Shown here piece after piece: positions 2,004 to 14,515 of a DNA stretch of 22,741 nucleotides (the first letter of the stretch is position 1; each line of letters opens with the position of its first letter). Origin of the DNA: a virus; the IMG/VR virus record IMGVR_UViG_3300021376_000375, positions 1 through 22,741 of that record; one strand, written 5' to 3'. Below the pieces are notes generated by a model. It made no database searches, was not told where the DNA came from, and saw only the letters and a program-made list of their open reading frames with translations. The position numbers and the translations under genes are program-made.

Positions 2004-4889
2004 TTATGGGCAATCAATATATTTTCCAGTACCAATCTTAGCAGATCCAACTGTAACTCTTTCGTCTGGACTTAGGCAACTAAATGAAGGTATTGCTTTA
2101 CCGCCATATCCCCCTCCACCAATAATTAATACTTCTGGATATCTATCAAAAGTTAATTCTCTATTTTTAATTCTAACACTAATAAGTAATCCCTTTTCAT
2201 TAATTTGTGCTTCAGCAATACTTGAATCTCCGTCAACATAAACTGTTGGCGGACTCGTGTAATTTCTTCCAGTATTCAACAGCGTAAAAGAATCTATGAT
2301 ACATTCTTTTACTGCTTTAGTTGGAGGATTTAATTTATATTTTCTTCCTGGATTTGTAATTCTGATTTCAGATAAAAATCCAGATTCATCAAGTAAAGCA
2401 ATAGCCGCTGCAGCAGTCCCATTTCCTGTAATAATAACAAATGGTGGAATTGTATATGGATCTCCTTTGTCTATAATTGGCAACTCAATAATTCCACCAC
2501 CGGGATCAGTAATTGGTTCACCAACGATTGGTTTATTAGGAATACCATTGTTTGGTTTAGGTTTAATATTTGACGAACTATCTAATGTTTTCAATTTATC
2601 TTCAAAACTTAAAGAATCAATTTCTCCTAAGATTATAACACTATCTTTCGCTCCTGTCCCTGGAATACCAAATATTAATATTTCATCAAATTCAATATCA
2701 GCGTCTGGTGCAATTCCAACGGTAACTTGCGCCATATTATTTGTGATAGTAAATGATCCAGCTAAAGATTTTGCTAATATATCGTCTGCCGTAATATTTT
2801 CACCAAAAATGTTATATAAAAGTGTTGTTCCATCAGGTACATTTTGTGTTTTGATTGTAAATTTAACAAACTCTCCTTCTTTTACAAAAATTTTATCTGC
2901 TTCAACAAGATAACTTGGTATTTTTTTAGATGGATCACGCTCTGTTCCAGAAATTCCATCAGAAACATCTGAAATTGGTGGGGAGGGATTTGTATTTAAT
3001 GGACTATTTGGATTGAATGTATTGGGGGGTATAAATGGTTGATTTTTAATATCATCACCGCCATCTCTATCACCAGTAACATTAGATGGAGATGAAGAAT
3101 CTTTTATAATACACTTACCAATATTTTTCTCTGCGGAAACTGTAAACCCCTGTGGTGTATCTTTAAAAATAGTGACATAAAAGGTTTCTGGGGATTCTTT
3201 TTCCAGATCAGCAAATGTTTGAATATCAATTGTTTTGGATGTTTCCCCAGCAACAAATCCAAGAATACCATCAGCTTTTCGATAATCCACATCTTCTTTA
3301 GCAGTTCCATCAGAAGTTACATACTCTACACTAGAAATAATATCAACATATCCACTTCTAGTAACAACAAACTTTGCTACACTTCCTTCTTGTACTACAA
3401 CATCATTAATAGAATAGGTAATCACTGGGTCAGAAGGAAATGGTTGAATTCCTCCCACAAAAGTTGTGTTTGTATTTGGTAAAGTAGTTCCTGTGTATGC
3501 GTCATCACATGTATATTGTGACCAATCTTCTCCAGTAACTGGGAAAAGTTCATCAGTAATTTTATCAAGTAAGTCGTCAAGGAAATCTTCTTTTTTTTCT
3601 GTTGCACAGTTAGTACATACAGTAGTTGTCTTTGAGCATTGTTTTGGTGGTCCACTGCACGAAATGCCAAGAATATCCATTACATATGCTAGGACATCTC
3701 CAATAATATCAATTGCGGATGCAATACTACCAAGAATAGCTTGAATTGGTCCAAGAATTTGATTTAAAATTTTATCTAATTCGCTTTGAATTTTATTCAA
3801 AATTCCTTCTACTAAAGCGTCAATTTGACACGCTGCTGCTTTATAAATTTCAAACAAATAACCAAACAACAAGTCTTGAATGAATGCTGCTAGTCTATCA
3901 CCAAGATCTGCCATTTGGCATCCAACTGCTGCTAAAATATCATTAAAGAACTTTGTTACTGGAGACAAACTATTTCCAGTTGGTGTTACCCCCAATAAGA
4001 AATTAGTAAGATCCTTAATACCCGCCTTTATCTTTTCAAGAATAAACCCCTTAATAGATGCTACAAGAGTTCTTACTACACGAATTCCTTTATCAATATA
4101 CCCCCGCGCTATCGTAACAGTATCATTTAATTCACCAGAAAGTTCTCCAACAAGATAAGTTCCAAGTTTTCCACCATTTCTTTGCGTTTCGTGTAACATC
4201 TCGCCAAGAAGACGTGTAAATGTTCCTGGTAGATCTTTTTCTTTTCCACAAGTATCAGCTACTTCAACACACCAGTTTATTCCAGCTGGGTTTGTATTAC
4301 TATTTTGCCCTTCTTTTGCTTTAATAAAATTAGTTACATCGTTCTCAATCTTGACCTCGCCCTTGCCGACTGCCCCTGCAGATGCAGTGCCGCCTGTTGG
4401 TGCGTGCCCTGCTCCGGTGTTGCTGCCGTTGCCCGGATCCGTGCCTGGAGTTTGATCGGCATTTTTTGTATTTGGACTTAAAAATGTCGTAAAAGATTTA
4501 CACCCACTTTCTCCTGGTGTTGGATCAGATTCCAGTTCTTTTGCTGTTGCTGCAGCAACTCGTCCGATAGATCCCATAATGACTGGTTGTTGCTTGTCAA
4601 CATCCAGAAAAAATCCAATAACCCAAACGCCTGGTTCAAGTTGATCACTAACTGAAGCTACACCTCCTGCAATATGAGGATTGGTAACTGGCATCATACA
4701 AATTGCCCAAGGCAAATCCACTGAATTTACAAAGTCACACGTTTTTGGATGTACCCCAACAATTCTGACTTTATAGCGACCAGATCTTTTTGGATCATCT
4801 TTTTTCTTCGATTCAATTTGTCCAATCCACCACTGAAATCCATCAGATCCAATTTGGTGTTTTGGATATAAACTACTCAATGCATCCAT
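2004..4889 (-). CDS. gp5: gp5-like baseplate hub protein with Calx-beta insertion and no lysozyme
   Basis: A 961-aa hub protein. Residues about 15-115 resemble the gp5/VgrG OB-fold (WWIGQIE, GRYKVRIVGVHP, PGVWVIGFFLD, PVIMGSIG). A Gly/Pro linker (about 135-175) and a long helical segment (about 200-415) follow, then a Cys cluster (CSGPPKQCSKTTTVCTNC). A Calx-beta-type domain lies at about 485-590 (EGSVAKFVVTRSG, DGTAKEDVDY, GETSKTIDI), with a second beta domain of similar flavour at about 655-760. The C-terminal segment (about 790-961) is rich in GRNYTSPPTVYV-like repeats seen in marine phage tail proteins. T4 gp5 carries a lysozyme between its OB-fold and spike; I see none here, and the spike is a separate downstream gene. 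The protein should sit at the centre of the hub under the gp27-like ring. The ATG at 4889 is 3 bases past the cp12 stop. Confidence 0.75.
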   Translation of the reverse strand: MDALSSLYPKHQIGSDGFQWWIGQIESKKKDDPKRSGRYKVRIVGVHPKTCDFVNSVDLPWAICMMPVTNPHIAGGVASVSDQLEPGVWVIGFFLDVDKQQPVIMGSIGRVAAATAKELESDPTPGESGCKSFTTFLSPNTKNADQTPGTDPGNGSNTGAGHAPTGGTASAGAVGKGEVKIENDVTNFIKAKEGQNSNTNPAGINWCVEVADTCGKEKDLPGTFTRLLGEMLHETQRNGGKLGTYLVGELSGELNDTVTIARGYIDKGIRVVRTLVASIKGFILEKIKAGIKDLTNFLLGVTPTGNSLSPVTKFFNDILAAVGCQMADLGDRLAAFIQDLLFGYLFEIYKAAACQIDALVEGILNKIQSELDKILNQILGPIQAILGSIASAIDIIGDVLAYVMDILGISCSGPPKQCSKTTTVCTNCATEKKEDFLDDLLDKITDELFPVTGEDWSQYTCDDAYTGTTLPNTNTTFVGGIQPFPSDPVITYSINDVVVQEGSVAKFVVTRSGYVDIISSVEYVTSDGTAKEDVDYRKADGILGFVAGETSKTIDIQTFADLEKESPETFYVTIFKDTPQGFTVSAEKNIGKCIIKDSSSPSNVTGDRDGGDDIKNQPFIPPNTFNPNSPLNTNPSPPISDVSDGISGTERDPSKKIPSYLVEADKIFVKEGEFVKFTIKTQNVPDGTTLLYNIFGENITADDILAKSLAGSFTITNNMAQVTVGIAPDADIEFDEILIFGIPGTGAKDSVIILGEIDSLSFEDKLKTLDSSSNIKPKPNNGIPNKPIVGEPITDPGGGIIELPIIDKGDPYTIPPFVIITGNGTAAAAIALLDESGFLSEIRITNPGRKYKLNPPTKAVKECIIDSFTLLNTGRNYTSPPTVYVDGDSSIAEAQINEKGLLISVRIKNRELTFDRYPEVLIIGGGGYGGKAIPSFSCLSPDERVTVGSAKIGTGKYIDCP

Positions 4890-6570: not shown

Positions 6571-8994
6571 TCAAATAGGCGGATAAAGTTTGGCTACTGG
6601 AGAAACCCCAGTAGTTTCTATTGCTCTAATTGGTGCTGCTGGCGGTGATGTGCGCCCAGCATTTTGTACATTATTTAGTATGATGGGGTCAAGTTTAATT
6701 TGCTGATGCCTTAATCTTGCTATAGCAGTATTTTTTGAATTTGTATTTAATGTATTTGAATTTGCCGTGGTGCTATTTACTTGTCGTGGAGGATTAAATG
6801 GTTTAGGACCTTTATAACCAGGAGCATTATAATATGCATTAGGACCAGTCAGTTGATCATATTGTGCTGTTCCTTCTGGAAATAAAGCATCACCAACTAC
6901 AGGTAAATTGAGAACACCTATAAATTTACTGAATAATTTAGCAAGACCCATTCCACTACGCTGTGCGGCTTGCAGCATAGTTGGTGTTTGCTGTGTCAAT
7001 AATGGAAGTAGTGATTGTGCTTTTGGTCCTGTATATTTACCAGACAATATACCTTCAGCCATTCTTAATCCTCTATTTGCTTGACGTGGGGAAACAACGG
7101 TAGCACCTCTTAATGTTCTTGCGCCTTGAGGAACTAACATATCTAATCTTGGACCTTGGCCAGGTAAAACACCTTTGAATTTACCAGCACCTCTGTAAGT
7201 GTCAGCAACCCAACCCTTCACACTACCATAAACACCCTCACCTAACATTCCCATTTGTCCTCTAAATCCGTTGTTACGAATTAAGTTTGGAACTCCTTCT
7301 CCAGTTCCGTGCATGATTCTTTTGAGATTAGTACCACGAAGTCCTTTAGCAGTTGTTCTGCGGTTTGATACTGGCGCCACCGCATTAATCATTCTTTCAA
7401 TTGGTGTTGCCATTCCAGTTACAAATCTACCAAATCCACCACCAGTTCCTCCTCCACTACCAGTAGTTCTTCTTCCATTGTTATTATTTCCTCTAAACCA
7501 AGAAAATGGATTCCACCATTGGAATCCAGATCCAGATGGACTTTGAGATCCAGATGTTGGTGTAGACATTGCTGGAGTAGATTGAGTTACCTTTCTTCTA
7601 GTTTTTTCCGCAGTTTCTGTTTCTTGTTGCTTGACAACCTTATCAGTAACTGTATTAGGAACTCCAAAAGAAGATGCAATTGGAGAAGATAAAGTTTTAA
7701 TTAATGGAGCGACTGCTCCTGCTAACGGACCCATCATTCCTAAAGAATTTTGTAATAATCCTAATGTTACAATACCAGTTGCTTTTGGAATCAATTCCAT
7801 TCCAGCATATAATTTTTCAGACTCGTCTTTTACTTCTTTTCTATCCTTGTCATTCATAACTACTGGAATGACTTTATTGAACATATCATCCATTGTTTTA
7901 ATATTACCTTTTTCTGGAGAGGTGCCCATTTCATACTTTGGTAGCATTGCCACTTCTGGTTTTGGACGTACCTTTCCGTCAACCGCACTAGGTTCTCCTT
8001 GGGTATAATTATTATCTAAAGGAATAATTTGTTCATTACCATGAAGTTTGGCATAGTATCCACTGTCTGGACCTGTTGCTATTCCCCCTCTTTCAAATCC
8101 ATCTTGATTATCATCTATAGGTAAAGATAATTGTTCTGCTCCTCTATCTTTATTGTCTTCTAAAAGATTTAATTGTCTAACATCGTTCTGATTGTCATTA
8201 ACACCAACATATCTCTGAGTTCCAGACATATCAGATTGTTCCTTCATGTCTTGAGATTTTTGTTTAATCTCTGATTTGTCGGTCTGTTTCTTGGCTTGCT
8301 GCATTTGCTCACGCAAGGTGGCAATAATTGCATCAAGTCTTTGCTCTAGACTATCTGCATTATATTCAAGTTTCTTGATCGTCCCAGCAATGCCCACCTT
8401 TGCTTCAATAACTCCAGATTGAGTTTCATCAAGTTTTTGATTAATACTTGTGATACTGGCATTGATAGACTCAGCAACAGCAGCTAAAAATACTCCGAGT
8501 TTTTGATCTTTTACTTTTATAGTTTTGTCTTTACCACCAAACATGTCCTCTGGTCTGGCAGTTTGAATCATCTTAGATTCTGACTTAAACTTTCTTTCCT
8601 CTGGACTCGCTATCCTTTGATATTCTGGTAAATTTCTGACATGAGCAGGAGTTCCAATCAATGGATCAACAACTGACTGCCCCCTTGCAAAACGATCAGG
8701 ATATTTAAACTGTGCTGAATATCTATTTTCTCTAGAAGATTTTCTATCAGTTTCTGGTTTTGATTTTCTAGGATCAAAAATTCCTAAAGTTCTGTTGTAT
8801 AAGTCTCCACCAAATTGACTCTGTAATGCTCTACCAAAAAATTCACCACGACGAAGTTTTGGATCTACATCGTATTTTTTCGCTTCTTCAATAGCTCGCT
8901 CTCTTTCCTCCTTTGCCATATTGGCAGCATCAAAGATCTTACCAGCAATATAACTGGTAAAATCTCCAGAAAAAGTAGCGGAATAGTTTGCCAT
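6571..8994 (-). CDS. Tape-measure-like tail protein with possible ADP-ribosyltransferase-like segment
   Basis: An 807-aa structural protein. Residues 1 to about 95 are a clear paralogue of the start of the preceding 1280-aa protein (MANYS, AGKIF-AAN-AKEE, FGGDLYNRT-GIFDPRK, PETDRKSS). A coiled-coil-like region follows (about 170-260). The motif GGIATGPDSGYYAKLHGNEQ near 300 resembles the HG-E-IPL element of tape-measure proteins. Residues about 558-640 contain H562-G-T, then NNGF, then G585-EGVYGS with Y589, and A597-DTY. This matches the His and Tyr motifs of PARP-like ADP-ribosyltransferases in order and approximate spacing; the third catalytic residue is not obvious. The C-terminus is Pro/Asn-rich. 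Its role is probably in the hub or tube lumen. It starts 4 bases after the previous stop. Confidence 0.6.
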   Translation of the reverse strand: MANYSATFSGDFTSYIAGKIFDAANMAKEERERAIEEAKKYDVDPKLRRGEFFGRALQSQFGGDLYNRTLGIFDPRKSKPETDRKSSRENRYSAQFKYPDRFARGQSVVDPLIGTPAHVRNLPEYQRIASPEERKFKSESKMIQTARPEDMFGGKDKTIKVKDQKLGVFLAAVAESINASITSINQKLDETQSGVIEAKVGIAGTIKKLEYNADSLEQRLDAIIATLREQMQQAKKQTDKSEIKQKSQDMKEQSDMSGTQRYVGVNDNQNDVRQLNLLEDNKDRGAEQLSLPIDDNQDGFERGGIATGPDSGYYAKLHGNEQIIPLDNNYTQGEPSAVDGKVRPKPEVAMLPKYEMGTSPEKGNIKTMDDMFNKVIPVVMNDKDRKEVKDESEKLYAGMELIPKATGIVTLGLLQNSLGMMGPLAGAVAPLIKTLSSPIASSFGVPNTVTDKVVKQQETETAEKTRRKVTQSTPAMSTPTSGSQSPSGSGFQWWNPFSWFRGNNNNGRRTTGSGGGTGGGFGRFVTGMATPIERMINAVAPVSNRRTTAKGLRGTNLKRIMHGTGEGVPNLIRNNGFRGQMGMLGEGVYGSVKGWVADTYRGAGKFKGVLPGQGPRLDMLVPQGARTLRGATVVSPRQANRGLRMAEGILSGKYTGPKAQSLLPLLTQQTPTMLQAAQRSGMGLAKLFSKFIGVLNLPVVGDALFPEGTAQYDQLTGPNAYYNAPGYKGPKPFNPPRQVNSTTANSNTLNTNSKNTAIARLRHQQIKLDPIILNNVQNAGRTSPPAAPIRAIETTGVSPVAKLYPPI

Positions 8995-8998
8995 TATT

Positions 8999-11900
8999 TT
9001 ATACTGTTGCTAGAATTGCTAGACTTGCTTCTTTTAAATTGACCGAATCAACAGGAGAAGAAGATGAAGGTTGAACCCCATTTTTATCTGATGTATCAGC
9101 GGTAGTACCGGTAGTGATTATAATGTATTGTATCGCAATTGATCCATTTTCAATTTCTTCAGCAGTAGAACTATCAGAAAGTAACTGAGATGGAATAAGT
9201 CCTTTCAATCCACCAGGAAGAATTTTTTGAATTTGATTAAAGATATTTTTCTCTTGCGCTTCTTTTTTTAGTCTTAATTTTTCTCTAAGTTCTTCCTGTC
9301 TCTTTTGTTCTTCTAATATTTGTTTAAGTGCGGAATTATATTGTTGTTGTAATGTTTTTTCGGATTTTACTGGTTGATCATAAAAACTTCCACCCCCTTT
9401 AGGAGCATATGGGAAAGAAGCAAATTCTGGTGCAATTTTACTCATAATTCCTCTGCTCAATCCCTGTTGCCTTAAATCACGACCAGAAACACCTCTAAAT
9501 GTTTCCAGTCTTTTCAGCGCCAAATAATCTTGTAGTTGATTTGTCATCTTTTCTGACCATTTAACATATCCTCCTTTAACAAGATCTGATAATGTATCTG
9601 GCATGAGTTGATATCTTCCAGTAGCATAAGATTCACCGCTTACATCATACCCAGCATTTCTTCCTCTGAGTCTACCCGTCTTCATCATATTCCATACCTC
9701 TCTAACGGTCATCTTGCCTTGTGCTAATTCTGGAACTATGTTTCCTCCATATACTACTCCATAACTCTTAGTTGTTCCTTCAGCATATGATATAGTTTTT
9801 AACAATGCCCTTTGCTCTGCTGTAAAATTGTAATTTCTATTAACAGTACCAGGACCACCAGTGCCACCACGAATTAATGATGTTTTGGAAGTAACTGCTC
9901 CACTATCATCCCCCCCAGTTCCTCCATTTCCATATCCTCTACTAGTAGGACCAGATGATGGCCTTCCATACATTGTTTGTATTTTTTCATTAATAGATAA
10001 GCGGAGTGCTTTGTTCTTACTAAGATCTATTTCTTCTTGATATCCAAGCATATTTTTTGGTTTAAATGCCTGTATTTTTCCAGGTCCAAGAACTTTAAAG
10101 AAAAATTGCTTTCCATCATGAGTAAATTCTATCATTCCTTTTTTCATTAATTGTTTAGTAATTGCTAGCTGACGAGCTGACTGGGCAGCTGCTGCCGCTG
10201 CTGCTGTGGTCGCTGGGTCTGGAGCTCCAGGCGTTGCTGGAGAATTGCTTCCTGGTTGAGTAGATACTGGCACATTTGATCCACCTCGTCCTGCAGCAGC
10301 TATTAATCCACTAACAAGAGTTCTCCAATTTGGATAAGGATGATTTCTGTCATATGGTCCACCAACAGGGAAAAAGTCCAAACTTGTGTGTGGTCCAGTC
10401 ATCCTCCCTGCTTCTGGAAATGGTTTATTCTTTGCATAGTCCCAACCAACTGGTCCCAAATGGGTGCCAGCGGTCACCGTGTCCCCAGGTTTTACTTTTA
10501 TAGAATCTTTGTTTGGGAAGTGGGCATAAAGGGCGTCAAAATAGGTTCCTGGGTTACTAGGATCTTCAGATCTAATAACAACATCCCAACCGTATCCCTG
10601 ATTTAAACCACCTGTATATTTACTACTAATAACTTTTCCTGGGAAAACAGCATAATTATTTTTAGAGTCAGCTGCACTAAAGTCTATTCCTGATTCTCCA
10701 GTTGCATCAATACCTTGACCACCAGCAATTACAATTCTAGCATCTCCAGTTGGAGGAGAAAAATTACCTAAATCGGCAACAATTGTACTTTCTTGTCGTG
10801 CCTTTTGAATTAAAGGCGCTACATTACTATCATAGAATCCTCTTGTAGTTACACCATTTGCATCTACAACATTCCCTCCAATCTTACCTGCATGAATAGC
10901 GGAATATATGTCATATCCGCTCATGCCTGGTTTTATTCCCGCTCCTTTTAGGTATTTTTTAACATATACCATCTGTTGTGCAATACTCATGCTTCTCAAC
11001 GAAGCAAGTGTAACTTTTTCCCCGCCAATTGTTTTATATGATCCGCCACGATCATCTGGGCAAAATTGAATCAATCCTGTGCAACCAAATCTGTTGGTCC
11101 TAGATGGATCCCCCGTGCTTTCCGCTAAAATAATACCAAGTAAATCTGGTGCTGGTACTCCTAATTCTGCAGCTGCTTTTTCTACTTCCGCTCTCAGTTC
11201 AGCACTTCCACCAGCATTGTCACCTAATTTATATCTTTGCCCTTCTGGCAATCCTGGTGGTGCCCCATCACCCGCTGCTTCCGCTTGTTCTCTAAGAACA
11301 AAAAAAGGATTTGTAAATAATGATATTAATTTATCATTTGAAGTTGGTGTTTTTTTGCCAATATCTGTTTTCAGCGATATTGGAATAATTTTATAATCTA
11401 GTCCGAGTTTTTTTGCTTCTGATCTGATTTGTCTTCCTTGTCCAGCAGATTCACCAAGAGTAACTGCAGTAGAAACCAATTGAGATCCCATTTTATCCAT
11501 TGAATCCACAAAAGCATTTTTAATTCCTTTTCTATCACCAGATCCTAAAATTAATTCTTTACCATGTAGCAATCCTGTTCCTTTTTTAGTTAGAGAAGTC
11601 CCAGTTTCATGGACACCAGTAACTGTATCAGCAATCTTGGCACCAGCATAGCCGCCAGCAGCACTGAATGCAGCACCAATCAAAAGACCAGCAAGAGTTC
11701 CCACACCTGGGAATAGCATAGTTCCTATTGCAGCACCAGCTGCAGCACCTGCTAAACCTCCACCAACACCAACTGTTGCTTGTAGATTACTTTGTCCTGC
11801 CGATTTTCTATCACCATATTCCCAAACAGCAAGTGCTTGTTTTAATCCAGGAACATTTTTACCAACACTTTTTATTTTAGATACTCCACCCATTCCTTGA

Positions 11901-12841
11901 GCAGCAGATCTAGCTGAAGCTATATTCTTTCCAAAATTTGCTGCTTTCGCAGGAAGTATTCTACCAATTTTACTAGCAGCAGAATTGCTAATTCTTCCTA
12001 CTGCTTTACCAGGAATTCTTTGAATGTTTCTAACTGTTGTTCTAGTTTGTCTAACAGATTTTGGTAATTTCCTGTATAATCTTCTTATTGCTCTATTCTT
12101 GTAAAATCTAGCGATTCTACTGGGGACAGAAGTACCACCTGTCATGGCACTAGTGTCAATTAATCCTCGTGTTGATGAAAGATCTTTTTGTTCTTCAATA
12201 ATTCTTTCTTTTTCTGCCGCCTCTGCTTTATCTTTTAGTTTTTCTTGAAATTCTGCTTGTTTACCAAAAATTTCCAGAATTTGATCAAATTTTGATAACA
12301 AAATATCATTTTGATTAATAATTAATTCTTGTGTGCTTTGCAGAGAATGATGTACATCTAGAACTTGAGCATTGATTTTAGAAATTTTTGCTTCAGCAGC
12401 AACCAATCTTGCGTCAACCCCTGCACCAAAAATTTTTGATATTTGTTTTCTTAAATCCTTATCTTTTACTGGCAAAGAATCATCATCAGACATCAACTCG
12501 CGTGTTGCTGCTGTTATTTTGTTTTTTCTTTTTTTAGTATCAGAATCATCGGTTTTTTCTTTCTGTGGAAACTGAGATGAAAATCTAGACTCTTTTGATG
12601 ATTTTCTGTCAGTTTCTGGGTGCTTTTTTCTTGGATCAAAAATACCAAATGTCCTATTATATAAGTCTCCGCCAAATTCATGTTGTAAAGCTCTGGCAAA
12701 GAGTGATCCTGGTTGTGCTTGCTCTATTCCCTCTTCTTTTCTTCTTTCTTTTTCTTCTTTTGCTAGATTTGCGGCACTAAAAATTTTCCCAGCAACATAA
12801 CTGGTAAGATCTCCACTAGATGTTTGGGAATAGTTTGCCAC
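8999..12841 (-). CDS. Tape-measure-like hub protein with three cell-wall-hydrolase-like domains
   Basis: A 1280-aa protein. Residues 1 to about 90 are shared with the 807-aa neighbour, followed by a coiled coil (about 145-220), a basic region (about 235-330) and a glycine-zipper hydrophobic stretch (about 350-400) suited to membrane insertion. Next are an SLT-type lytic transglycosylase-like domain (about 550-690; AES with E574, then GCTGLIQF), an M23-peptidase-like domain (about 710-840; GIDF with D720, YAH with H774, GPH with H818), and a third muramidase-like domain resembling lambda endolysin/GH104 (about 1010-1150; YAEGT with E1021, then ATGRYQLMPDT). A coiled coil ends the protein. The M23 site lacks two expected zinc ligands. 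It starts with GTG sharing one base with the gp51-like stop, and no clear ribosome site is visible. It lies where other tailed phages place the tape measure, right after a frameshifted tail chaperone. Confidence 0.75.
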   Translation of the reverse strand: MANYSQTSSGDLTSYVAGKIFSAANLAKEEKERRKEEGIEQAQPGSLFARALQHEFGGDLYNRTFGIFDPRKKHPETDRKSSKESRFSSQFPQKEKTDDSDTKKRKNKITAATRELMSDDDSLPVKDKDLRKQISKIFGAGVDARLVAAEAKISKINAQVLDVHHSLQSTQELIINQNDILLSKFDQILEIFGKQAEFQEKLKDKAEAAEKERIIEEQKDLSSTRGLIDTSAMTGGTSVPSRIARFYKNRAIRRLYRKLPKSVRQTRTTVRNIQRIPGKAVGRISNSAASKIGRILPAKAANFGKNIASARSAAQGMGGVSKIKSVGKNVPGLKQALAVWEYGDRKSAGQSNLQATVGVGGGLAGAAAGAAIGTMLFPGVGTLAGLLIGAAFSAAGGYAGAKIADTVTGVHETGTSLTKKGTGLLHGKELILGSGDRKGIKNAFVDSMDKMGSQLVSTAVTLGESAGQGRQIRSEAKKLGLDYKIIPISLKTDIGKKTPTSNDKLISLFTNPFFVLREQAEAAGDGAPPGLPEGQRYKLGDNAGGSAELRAEVEKAAAELGVPAPDLLGIILAESTGDPSRTNRFGCTGLIQFCPDDRGGSYKTIGGEKVTLASLRSMSIAQQMVYVKKYLKGAGIKPGMSGYDIYSAIHAGKIGGNVVDANGVTTRGFYDSNVAPLIQKARQESTIVADLGNFSPPTGDARIVIAGGQGIDATGESGIDFSAADSKNNYAVFPGKVISSKYTGGLNQGYGWDVVIRSEDPSNPGTYFDALYAHFPNKDSIKVKPGDTVTAGTHLGPVGWDYAKNKPFPEAGRMTGPHTSLDFFPVGGPYDRNHPYPNWRTLVSGLIAAAGRGGSNVPVSTQPGSNSPATPGAPDPATTAAAAAAAQSARQLAITKQLMKKGMIEFTHDGKQFFFKVLGPGKIQAFKPKNMLGYQEEIDLSKNKALRLSINEKIQTMYGRPSSGPTSRGYGNGGTGGDDSGAVTSKTSLIRGGTGGPGTVNRNYNFTAEQRALLKTISYAEGTTKSYGVVYGGNIVPELAQGKMTVREVWNMMKTGRLRGRNAGYDVSGESYATGRYQLMPDTLSDLVKGGYVKWSEKMTNQLQDYLALKRLETFRGVSGRDLRQQGLSRGIMSKIAPEFASFPYAPKGGGSFYDQPVKSEKTLQQQYNSALKQILEEQKRQEELREKLRLKKEAQEKNIFNQIQKILPGGLKGLIPSQLLSDSSTAEEIENGSIAIQYIIITTGTTADTSDKNGVQPSSSSPVDSVNLKEASLAILATV

Positions 12842-13029
12842 TATTTGTTTTTCGCTTGTTCTTGTTTTTGTTTAACCTCATCCAGATATTGCATAAGAAG
12901 AGTTGTATAAACTTCTCTTTCCCACGGCATTAAATTTTCAATCTCGGTCAAACTATATTTATGGTACTGCATCAAAGCGAAATTCATGCGATAGTACCCC
13001 TCCAAACTATTTTGAAAGAGTGCTATGCG
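12841..13029 (-). CDS. gp51-like tail assembly extension, probably a -1 frameshift of gp26
   Basis: An open frame, -1 relative to gp26, runs from the slippery site to the TAG at 12841-12843. Read through, it adds 62 residues to gp26: 14 residues (RIALFQNSLEGYYR) and then 48 from an internal ATG at 12987, including the segment LMPWEREVYTTLLMQYLDEV. The hydrophobic helical pattern with WERE and a short charged tail is typical of phage tail-assembly chaperone extensions. The fusion would be 298 aa. An alternative is a separate 48-aa gene started at 12987, since GGAGG precedes that ATG by 11 bases; both routes may be used. Position directly before a tape-measure-like gene matches the lambda G-GT/H arrangement. 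It is too short for ordinary gene finders to have caught. Confidence 0.7.
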   Translation of the reverse strand, partial: RIALFQNSLEGYYRMNFALMQYHKYSLTEIENLMPWEREVYTTLLMQYLDEVKQKQEQAKNK

Positions 13030-13035
13030 AAAAAA
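12988..13035 (-). promoter_or_regulatory. Programmed -1 ribosomal frameshift signal
   Basis: The minus strand at 13035-13029 reads T TTT TTC in the gp26 frame, a canonical X-XXY-YYZ slippery heptamer, two codons before the gp26 stop. Seven bases downstream an 8-bp stem with three G-T pairs forms between 13021-13014 and 13003-12996 (10-base loop). Outside it 13028-13023 can pair with 12994-12988 with one bulge. Spacer length and structure match known stimulators. The event itself is inferred. Confidence 0.72.
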
Positions 13036-13736
13036 TTCTGTAAACCCTCAATTGTATAATCAGATTCTTTCCCGGTGTTAGGATTAACAACGGTAAATTT
13101 ATGAGTTAGTTTTGGAGAAGTTTGATAGAATTTTTGAATTTGTTCAAATTGTTTTGTAGTCAATTTTTCAACAAATTCACGAAATTCTTTTTTTGAAGTG
13201 GTTGTGTTGTCGTAAACATCTTCTCCTTGAAAAATTTGTTCAATAGAATTTGAAATAAATTCATACACTTCCTCTGTTTGCATTTCTTTTTGTAAAAATT
13301 CTCTTTCAACAAATTCTTTCATACTTGGATACTTCATTACAATACCAAAATCATCTTCAAACATAATTTTTGAAGAATGCCCTTCTGGTTTTACAACATC
13401 AACTTCATTGATATTAATTTGTGCTTCAACTTGAGTTTCATTATCATCAAGACAAGTAACACTCAATGTAATTGTTTCTCCAATAGACGCTGCTCTAATT
13501 CTAAGAAACAAATACTCCAAATCAAAACTAGGAAGGGCATCTACTTTAATTCTTGTCAAAACACAATTTTGAAGCAAATCTTTAACTGCCTCAATAACTT
13601 GTTTTTCATCTTGAGATTCTAATGCAAGTAAGAGTACTTTTTCTTCTTTTACTAGAAAAGGTCTATATTTTAATTGTTTACCATTAGATGGTAATTCAAG
13701 TTCATATGTTGGATATCCAATTTTTGGCAAAGCCAT
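13023..13736 (-). CDS. gp26: gp26 baseplate hub assembly protein
   Basis: A 237-aa protein of the T4 gp26 baseplate family. The N-terminus (YELELPSNGKQLKYRPFLVKEEKVLLLA) is the family hallmark, followed by the segment with VLTRIKVDALPSFDLEYLFLRIRA. It acts in assembly of the central baseplate hub. Reading stops at TAG (13023-13025), two codons after the slippery site TTTTTTC, so a fraction of ribosomes probably makes a 298-aa fusion with the gp51-like frame. The start ATG has GAGG about 9 bases upstream and a late-type promoter at 13761-13768, making this the first gene of a promoter-proximal late unit. Confidence 0.88.
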   Translation of the reverse strand: MALPKIGYPTYELELPSNGKQLKYRPFLVKEEKVLLLALESQDEKQVIEAVKDLLQNCVLTRIKVDALPSFDLEYLFLRIRAASIGETITLSVTCLDDNETQVEAQININEVDVVKPEGHSSKIMFEDDFGIVMKYPSMKEFVEREFLQKEMQTEEVYEFISNSIEQIFQGEDVYDNTTTSKKEFREFVEKLTTKQFEQIQKFYQTSPKLTHKFTVVNPNTGKESDYTIEGLQNFFA

Positions 13737-13843: not shown

Positions 13844-14515
13844 TTATTTTTTACGTCCTTCTTTTTCACCGTAAAGAATTGTATGTCTACTATAGTAAAA
13901 ATTTACCGACAATCTTGCAATTTGTGATGTTCCATATGATAATGGGACAGCATCTATTGAATATGGATAGCAGTTTTCTAAAATATATGTAATTGGAGCT
14001 CTTTCATTCGCAGATGTAGATCCTGGTTCTGTTTTTATAATTCTAGCGGTGCAAACATATGTGTTTGGATATTTCAGTCTATTGATACGATTTCTTAGTC
14101 TGGGTTTAGCTCCTAGGGCGCCTTCGAAAGTTCCATTAAAAATTCTTTGATCACCCTCTCCAAAAATGTAATCATACCATGCTGTAAAAAATTTCAATGG
14201 AATCATTTCGGCATCCAGCAAAAATGAAAGACTCACATCTGTAAAAAGTCTTGTGTGCGGATAATAAACTGCACCCTCCCCTAAGTATCTACCAGTTATA
14301 GTTGATACTGCTGATTGTACATTTGGTAATTGTGCCTCATCACAAAACATGTTTACTATACTTTTACTGTCGCTAGTATAATAGTTTTCAAATGGTTTTG
14401 GTTGATTATCTTTTCCGAGTGCAAAGTCAAACTGCACATCAAATCCAGTAGTCAGAGACATTCCTCCCTGAGCACCAATCTTTGACATAAATTCGCTAAT
14501 CTTTGTTACTGCCAC
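13844..14515 (-). CDS. Tail-tube or tube-initiator-like protein (gp19/gp54 type)
   Basis: A 223-aa protein with features of T4-type tail tube family members: an N-terminal beta segment (SLTTGFDVQFDFAL), a central PLKFFTAWYDYIFG motif, and a C-terminal beta pair (YPNTYVCTARIIK, then ITYILENCYPYSIDAVPLSYGTSQIARLSVNFYYSRH). These tube-like domains form hexameric rings stacked on the baseplate. Its place beside gp48 (tube cap) suggests the gp54-like tube initiator, but the main tube gp19 or a paralogue is also possible. The start is GTG at 14515, preceded by a late-type promoter 28 bases upstream; no strong ribosome site is visible. Confidence 0.6.
   Translation of the reverse strand: MAVTKISEFMSKIGAQGGMSLTTGFDVQFDFALGKDNQPKPFENYYTSDSKSIVNMFCDEAQLPNVQSAVSTITGRYLGEGAVYYPHTRLFTDVSLSFLLDAEMIPLKFFTAWYDYIFGEGDQRIFNGTFEGALGAKPRLRNRINRLKYPNTYVCTARIIKTEPGSTSANERAPITYILENCYPYSIDAVPLSYGTSQIARLSVNFYYSRHTILYGEKEGRKK

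Follow-up and report, generated by a model that had tools for sequence, protein, structure and literature searches.

The gp26 Locus

The window analyzed here is the whole 22,741-nt stretch of DNA given by positions 1 to 22,741 of IMG/VR virus record IMGVR_UViG_3300021376_000375, a fragment of a T4-like ocean cyanophage, and all features described below lie on its minus strand. It contains one PF12322 gene, the 237-aa gp26 ORF (13023..13736), whose product matches PF12322 with an E-value of 1.3e-70 (238 bits against a curated cut-off of 24.5) and phrog_150 with an E-value of 8.5e-76, and would be the short form of a tail assembly chaperone. The gene sits between a tail tube protein gene upstream (13844..14515; PF23849, E 4.9e-54; phrog_45, tail tube) and a gene for a 1280-aa tape-measure-like protein (8999..12841) with a Peptidase_M23 domain (E 1.3e-7) and weak matches to SLT and to phrog_167, tape measure (E 4e-4). 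Across 736 phage records gp26 was found in one place per record, a count in which paralogs as distant as those of T4 could escape detection.

The two large adjacent proteins that follow gp26 (8999-12841 and 6571-8994) have a common N-terminal region (35% over 264 columns, E 1e-35); the M23 peptidase domain is on the larger, and either is a candidate tape measure. In the annotations of HTVC008M and RHph_I1_18, the tail tape measure is two genes past the gp51 frame. Elsewhere in the window, a gp5-like baseplate hub protein (2004-4889) carries a Calx-beta domain (E 1.2e-13), with no lysozyme domain listed at the Pfam threshold used, and a 119-aa ORF (91-450) has, by eye, a signal-peptide-like start and an outer-membrane-barrel-like sequence.

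The 3′ end of gp26 reads CAG AAT TTT TTC GCA TAG. It holds the slippery heptamer U UUU UUC (13029..13035), separated by the single codon GCA from the zero-frame stop TAG (13023..13025). A preliminary description of the window had noticed T TTT TTC in the gp26 frame ahead of the stop; we confirm the motif at 13035-13029, in the phase required for tandem -1 slippage.

The -1 Frame and Its gp51 Domain

Read after a slip as CGC ATA GCA ..., the -1 frame runs from CGC (13029) to TAG (12843-12841), giving a C-terminal extension of 62 codons plus a stop (12841..13029) that shares 1 nt with the GTG start of the 1280-aa gene. Joined to 236 residues of gp26, the 62 codons would yield a predicted fusion of 298 aa with the junction QNFFRIALFQ. 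Both the 62-codon frame ending one base into the next GTG and the 298-aa fusion with its QNFFR junction had been put forward beforehand and are borne out by coordinates and translation. Upstream, the -1 frame meets a TGA stop five codons 5′ of the heptamer, and no start codon lies between the two.

The -1 peptide matches phrog_634 (E 2e-25), annotated as “baseplate hub assembly catalyst.” The hidden frame had been called gp51-like; it does encode a real domain, but its counterpart in T4 is no more than the C-terminal part of gp51. The peptide also gives a weak match (E 0.0024) to the end of the gp26 family's own profile, phrog_150, which suggests that fused forms exist. The gp51 domain occurs in 545 phage records, in one place each and directly after gp26 where examined, and its protein sequence is recognizable to ∼35–40% identity across them. 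Deposited annotations treat it variously: that of S-CAM1 (L213) leaves it out, and those of S-RSM4 (L214) and HTVC008M (L084) place the gp51 start inside the conserved domain.

The loci fetched provided 211 usable gp26 ends, which fall into 74 clusters at 80% nucleotide identity. Beyond the gp26 stop, the -1 frame stays open for 50 codons in 73 of the 74 clusters, and frames 0 and +1 do so in none; in shuffled sequences a 55-codon open -1 frame arises in 1.4%. The residues ahead of the internal ATG, which the preliminary description had proposed aligning, lie in a stretch between slip site and domain core that is conserved in the -1 frame. In one locus (L065, from position 2760 onward) the stem region appears to be duplicated in tandem within the -1 frame, which is still open.

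Conservation of the Slip Site

An in-phase U UUU UU(C/U/A) is present in 69 of the 74 clusters. Conservation of the heptamer, and of the stem and the -1 coding as well, reaches well beyond the cyanomyoviruses in which a comparison had been suggested. Sixty-eight clusters have Phe-Phe near the gp26 end, spelled TTTTTTC in 63 and TTTTTTT in 5, with no other spelling among the 68. Codon usage of the same genes would lead one to expect the exact heptamer in ∼14% of clusters; the excess corresponds to a log10 P of about -54 assuming independent clusters, a value that overstates the significance since the clusters are not fully independent. The codon before Phe-Phe may stand for Ser (AGT, TCT), Asn, Asp, or Ala, but its third base is T in each case. 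RHph_I1_18 keeps U UUU UUA even though more than ten further codons, by a good margin, separate it from the zero-frame stop, so the heptamer is conserved independently of the stop.

Loss of the heptamer together with retention of the second frame as a free-standing gene, the observation that the preliminary description named as speaking against frameshifting, was not found in the Kyanoviridae. Three small groups, Kuttervirus (L194, L203, L205), Vibrio BX-1 (L210), and Vibrio K474 (L211), lack a canonical heptamer but retain the -1 frame. In its place their loci have R AUU UUC, C GUU UUU, and G CUU UUU, which recall slip sites of the T7 gene 10 type, and a TAATG overlap is present in BX-1, K474, and one Kuttervirus cluster (L205). 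These groups may have solutions other than a canonical heptamer slip.

Candidate Stimulatory Elements

An internal Shine–Dalgarno (SD)-like GAGGG (13045..13049) precedes the slip site by 9 nt, and GAGGG or GAAGG is found ∼9 nt ahead of the heptamer among homologs. Anti-SD pairing at this site is the strongest of the last 40 gp26 codons and exceeds that obtained by synonymous resampling (Wilcoxon P 3e-7), and its Glu codon is GAG in 37 of 50 clusters compared with 28% expected from the same genes.

Downstream, after a 7-nt spacer, a putative stimulatory stem-loop (12996..13021) is formed by a 5′ arm at 13021-13011, a loop at 13010-13007, and a 3′ arm at 13006-12996, comprising 11 bp including G-U pairs, with a predicted folding energy of -16.6 kcal/mol (z -3.9 relative to shuffles). 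Fold prediction adds a lower stem extension (12991..13026) pairing 13026-13023 with 12994-12991; of 30 relatives, 5 and 10 do not preserve its two outermost pairs. The 8-bp stem noted earlier thus begins where it was said to, 7 bases after the heptamer, but is longer, at 11 bp plus the lower stem.

Over the 69 clusters the mean z of the fold after the heptamer is -1.96, against -0.64 to +0.07 at four control positions. Three clades form the stem in the same place from different arms, namely ACUCUUUCAAA/UUUGGAGGGGU in the window clade, UGUUCUAUAAUAAU/AUUAUUAUAGAACA in the S-PM2 clade, and AGUAUGGCUCA/UGAGUCAUACU in the P-SSM2 clade. In the window clade (30 relatives), 92.9% of cells are paired compared with 46–54% when the arms are slid; for the window, S-PM2, and P-SSM2 clades together the values are 92.9, 88.2, and 97.0% compared with 28–54%. 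Changes on both sides of the stem are confined to the window and S-PM2 clades; clades A and B show modest covariation, and clade C, with its nearly invariant stem, shows none. A synonymous-constraint test gave no significant drop, synonymous variability within the stem being no lower than downstream. We infer stimulating roles for both the SD-like site and the stem-loop.

Predicted Fold of gp26

The AlphaFold2 model of the window gp26 has a pLDDT of 87.5. VIA-align placed the HK97 tail assembly chaperone (2ob9) at the top with a Z of 7.0 (below 8) over residues 1–85, aligning 84 residues at 11% identity and leaving ∼140 further residues in gp26; 3fgx was second (Z 6.4), the two being the top two among three entries listed. 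Foldseek returned 2ob9 at rank 2 with a nonsignificant E-value of 0.75. A PDB sequence search with the gp26 profile gave no match, and a PDB fold search with a model of T4-type gp51, which did not return the chaperones 2ob9 and 3fgx, was uninformative. The modeled likeness of the gp26 N-terminal fold to the HK97 chaperone supports a chaperone fold without proving it.

T4 and the Two-Gene Arrangement

T4 gp26 and T4 gp51 both belong to PF12322, and the C-terminal part of T4 gp51 matches phrog_634 (E 1.2e-23), placing PF12322 and phrog_634 in one ORF; aligned by eye, this part reads YSLNSISKMIPAER against YSLTEIENLMPWER in the window -1 frame. Because PF12322 is shared and phrog_634 is on gp51, T4 gp51 is the in-frame long form and T4 gp26 the short form. 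In gene 26 of T4 and its close relatives Phe-Phe is spelled TTC TTT and the heptamer is lost, in more distant two-gene phages Phe-Phe itself is lost, and in two-gene phages the -1 frame beyond the gene 26 stop enters gene 25. In the Tevenvirinae, which have lost the heptamer, gp51 is a second copy of gp26 to which the domain is joined in frame, and two genes make the same pair of proteins, gene 26 the short one and gene 51 the long, in-frame one. These results reproduce the T4-like two-gene chaperone arrangement that PMC10885494 credits to Vladimirov, Gautam and Davidson 2022. In one locus (L223:3001-3755), a T4-type gp51 gene is apparently split into two frames near residues 113–120, through sequencing error or in reality.

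Compared with its T4 counterpart, the gp51 of cyanophages and vibriophages has been reported to “lack” ∼200 residues at the start, and gp51 has been called missing in Aeh1 (PMC3037559). A frameshift would explain this oddity, the “missing” ∼200 residues being gp26 itself; locus L187, probably Aeh1, has both the heptamer and the -1 frame. The gp51 annotation in several hundred marine T4-like genomes would be corrected accordingly, and an evolutionary contrast would emerge in which the short/long pair is produced by recoding in most of the sampled superfamily and by gene duplication in the Tevenvirinae.

Frameshifting and Alternative Readings

Sequence comparison shows a heptamer, a coding -1 frame, a stem, and kinship with T4 gp26 and gp51, and on this basis a -1 frameshift in gp26 very probably yields short and long tail assembly chaperones. 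Most ribosomes would terminate at UAG to give the 237-aa short form. Contact between GAGGG and the anti-SD behind, and the stem-loop ahead, would hold ribosomes over U UUU UUC, and held ribosomes would sometimes slip back one base and continue into the 298-aa long form with its gp51 domain. Like lambda gpG and gpGT, the two forms would then act as chaperones of the tape measure protein. That frameshifting takes place, how efficiently it does so, and that the two forms act on the tape measure are what we infer from the conserved signal and reading frame.

The preliminary description had itself raised a competing model, internal initiation at ATG 12987 with GGAGG in front. In this model gp51 would be a free-standing small protein started at that ATG (12985..12987) or, in other phages, at an ATG past or overlapping the gp26 stop. 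The window does contain both elements, GGAGGGG (12997..13003) preceding the ATG; a separate gp51 is annotated in deposited S-PM2, P-SSM2, HTVC008M, and other genomes, and TAATG/TGATG overlaps occur in QD01, PhiW-14, and Yut3. However, the ATG is not conserved, the residue there being M in the window's clade and T, I, V, or S in relatives elsewhere. No ATG at all precedes the core (-1 codons 2–19) in 27 of the 69 clusters, and 16 lack ATG, GTG, and TTG alike. A start codon with a plausible SD in front is found in just 11 of the 69, and in the eight that belong to the window's clade the SD is an arm of the stem: the GGAGG formerly read as a Shine–Dalgarno sequence is paired within the 3′ arm and forms part of Leu-Glu-Gly codons of the -1 frame. 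Residues 5′ of the annotated S-RSM4 and HTVC008M starts are conserved in the -1 frame, and internal initiation would leave the heptamer no reason for being kept. Internal initiation in place of frameshifting is thus very unlikely, and as a general route it is rejected because start codons are missing and the SD is buried in the stem. A start codon in the -1 frame 5′ of the heptamer, also considered, is present in only 3 of the 69 clusters. Within the window's clade both routes might operate, with some free C-terminal domain made from ATG 12987 alongside the frameshift fusion, given that all eight window-like 80% clusters keeping the ATG also carry the SD-like arm; yet this SD is base-paired in the predicted stem, and the nearest ATG-less relatives (S-CAM1, S-RSM4, and locus L036) retain all else, making a double route unlikely. 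A bolder and distinctly improbable idea is that one stem-loop in this clade both stimulates the -1 frameshift and masks the SD of ATG 12987, in which case read-through ribosomes would expose a third product, a 48-aa gp51 domain on its own, coupled to how often ribosomes shift frame.

The long form might conceivably arise by transcriptional slippage on the U6 run instead of by ribosomal frameshifting, and nearly all homologs do have a homopolymer of six or seven T. Six is short for slippage by a bacterial polymerase, however, and tandem tRNA slippage agrees with the codon phase, with C as the seventh base, and with the stem and the SD-like site, so that we rate this route as highly improbable. 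That the -1 frame is a decaying, untranslated remnant of a T4-like gp51 might be read into the report of cyanophage gp51 at ∼20% of the length of T4 gp51 (PMC3037559), but it is hardly credible for a frame that is uninterrupted in 73 of 74 clusters, with a protein sequence still recognizable over 545 records. A programmed -1 frameshift in gp26 is strongly supported, about as well as comparison permits.

Comparison with Known Frameshift Systems

In E. coli dnaX and IS911, frameshift cassettes consist of an SD-like site ∼10 nt upstream, a slippery heptamer, and a stem-loop a few nucleotides downstream. The heptamer of the window, together with the SD-like site and stem as putative stimulators, resembles these cassettes, but the heptamers of dnaX and IS911 are A-rich and their proteins unrelated.

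Production of short and long tail assembly chaperones by frameshifting is known in many tailed phages. The lambda G/GT chaperones are the case to which the window was originally likened (Levin 1993; Xu 2004, 2013; review PMC5009743), and the parallel extends to gene order and to the proposed two-form product, with likeness in fold being tentative. Lambda differs in its slip site, which is not U UUU UUC, and the window has a larger N-terminal protein (237 aa) as well as predicted SD-like and stem elements; the profile searches used found no sequence similarity between the window chaperone and lambda G/GT. The HK97 chaperone (PDB 2ob9) is the best structural match of gp26 residues 1–85, yet at 11% identity. 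In the Vandenendeviridae/Andersonviridae, the chaperone uses a -1 frameshift at GTTTTT (phage Adele, PMC12846349), which likewise puts a conserved poly-T slip site ahead of the tape measure gene, the downstream ORF being misannotated as a separate gene, but the motif and the phage families are other than those of the window. The same source cites Vladimirov 2022 on frameshift signals of the poly-T kind in the chaperone genes of T4-like phages. The T4 hub assembly chaperones gp26 and gp51 are of the same family as the window protein, the last ∼50 residues of T4 gp51 being the window's -1 domain, but T4 has two genes and no heptamer, whereas the window phage has one gene and, as proposed here, a frameshift. 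The gp26/gp51 pair is a member of the known class of tail-assembly-chaperone frameshifts, to which we add how broadly the features are conserved, a signal in three parts, the case against internal initiation, and an explanation for the “short” cyanophage gp51.
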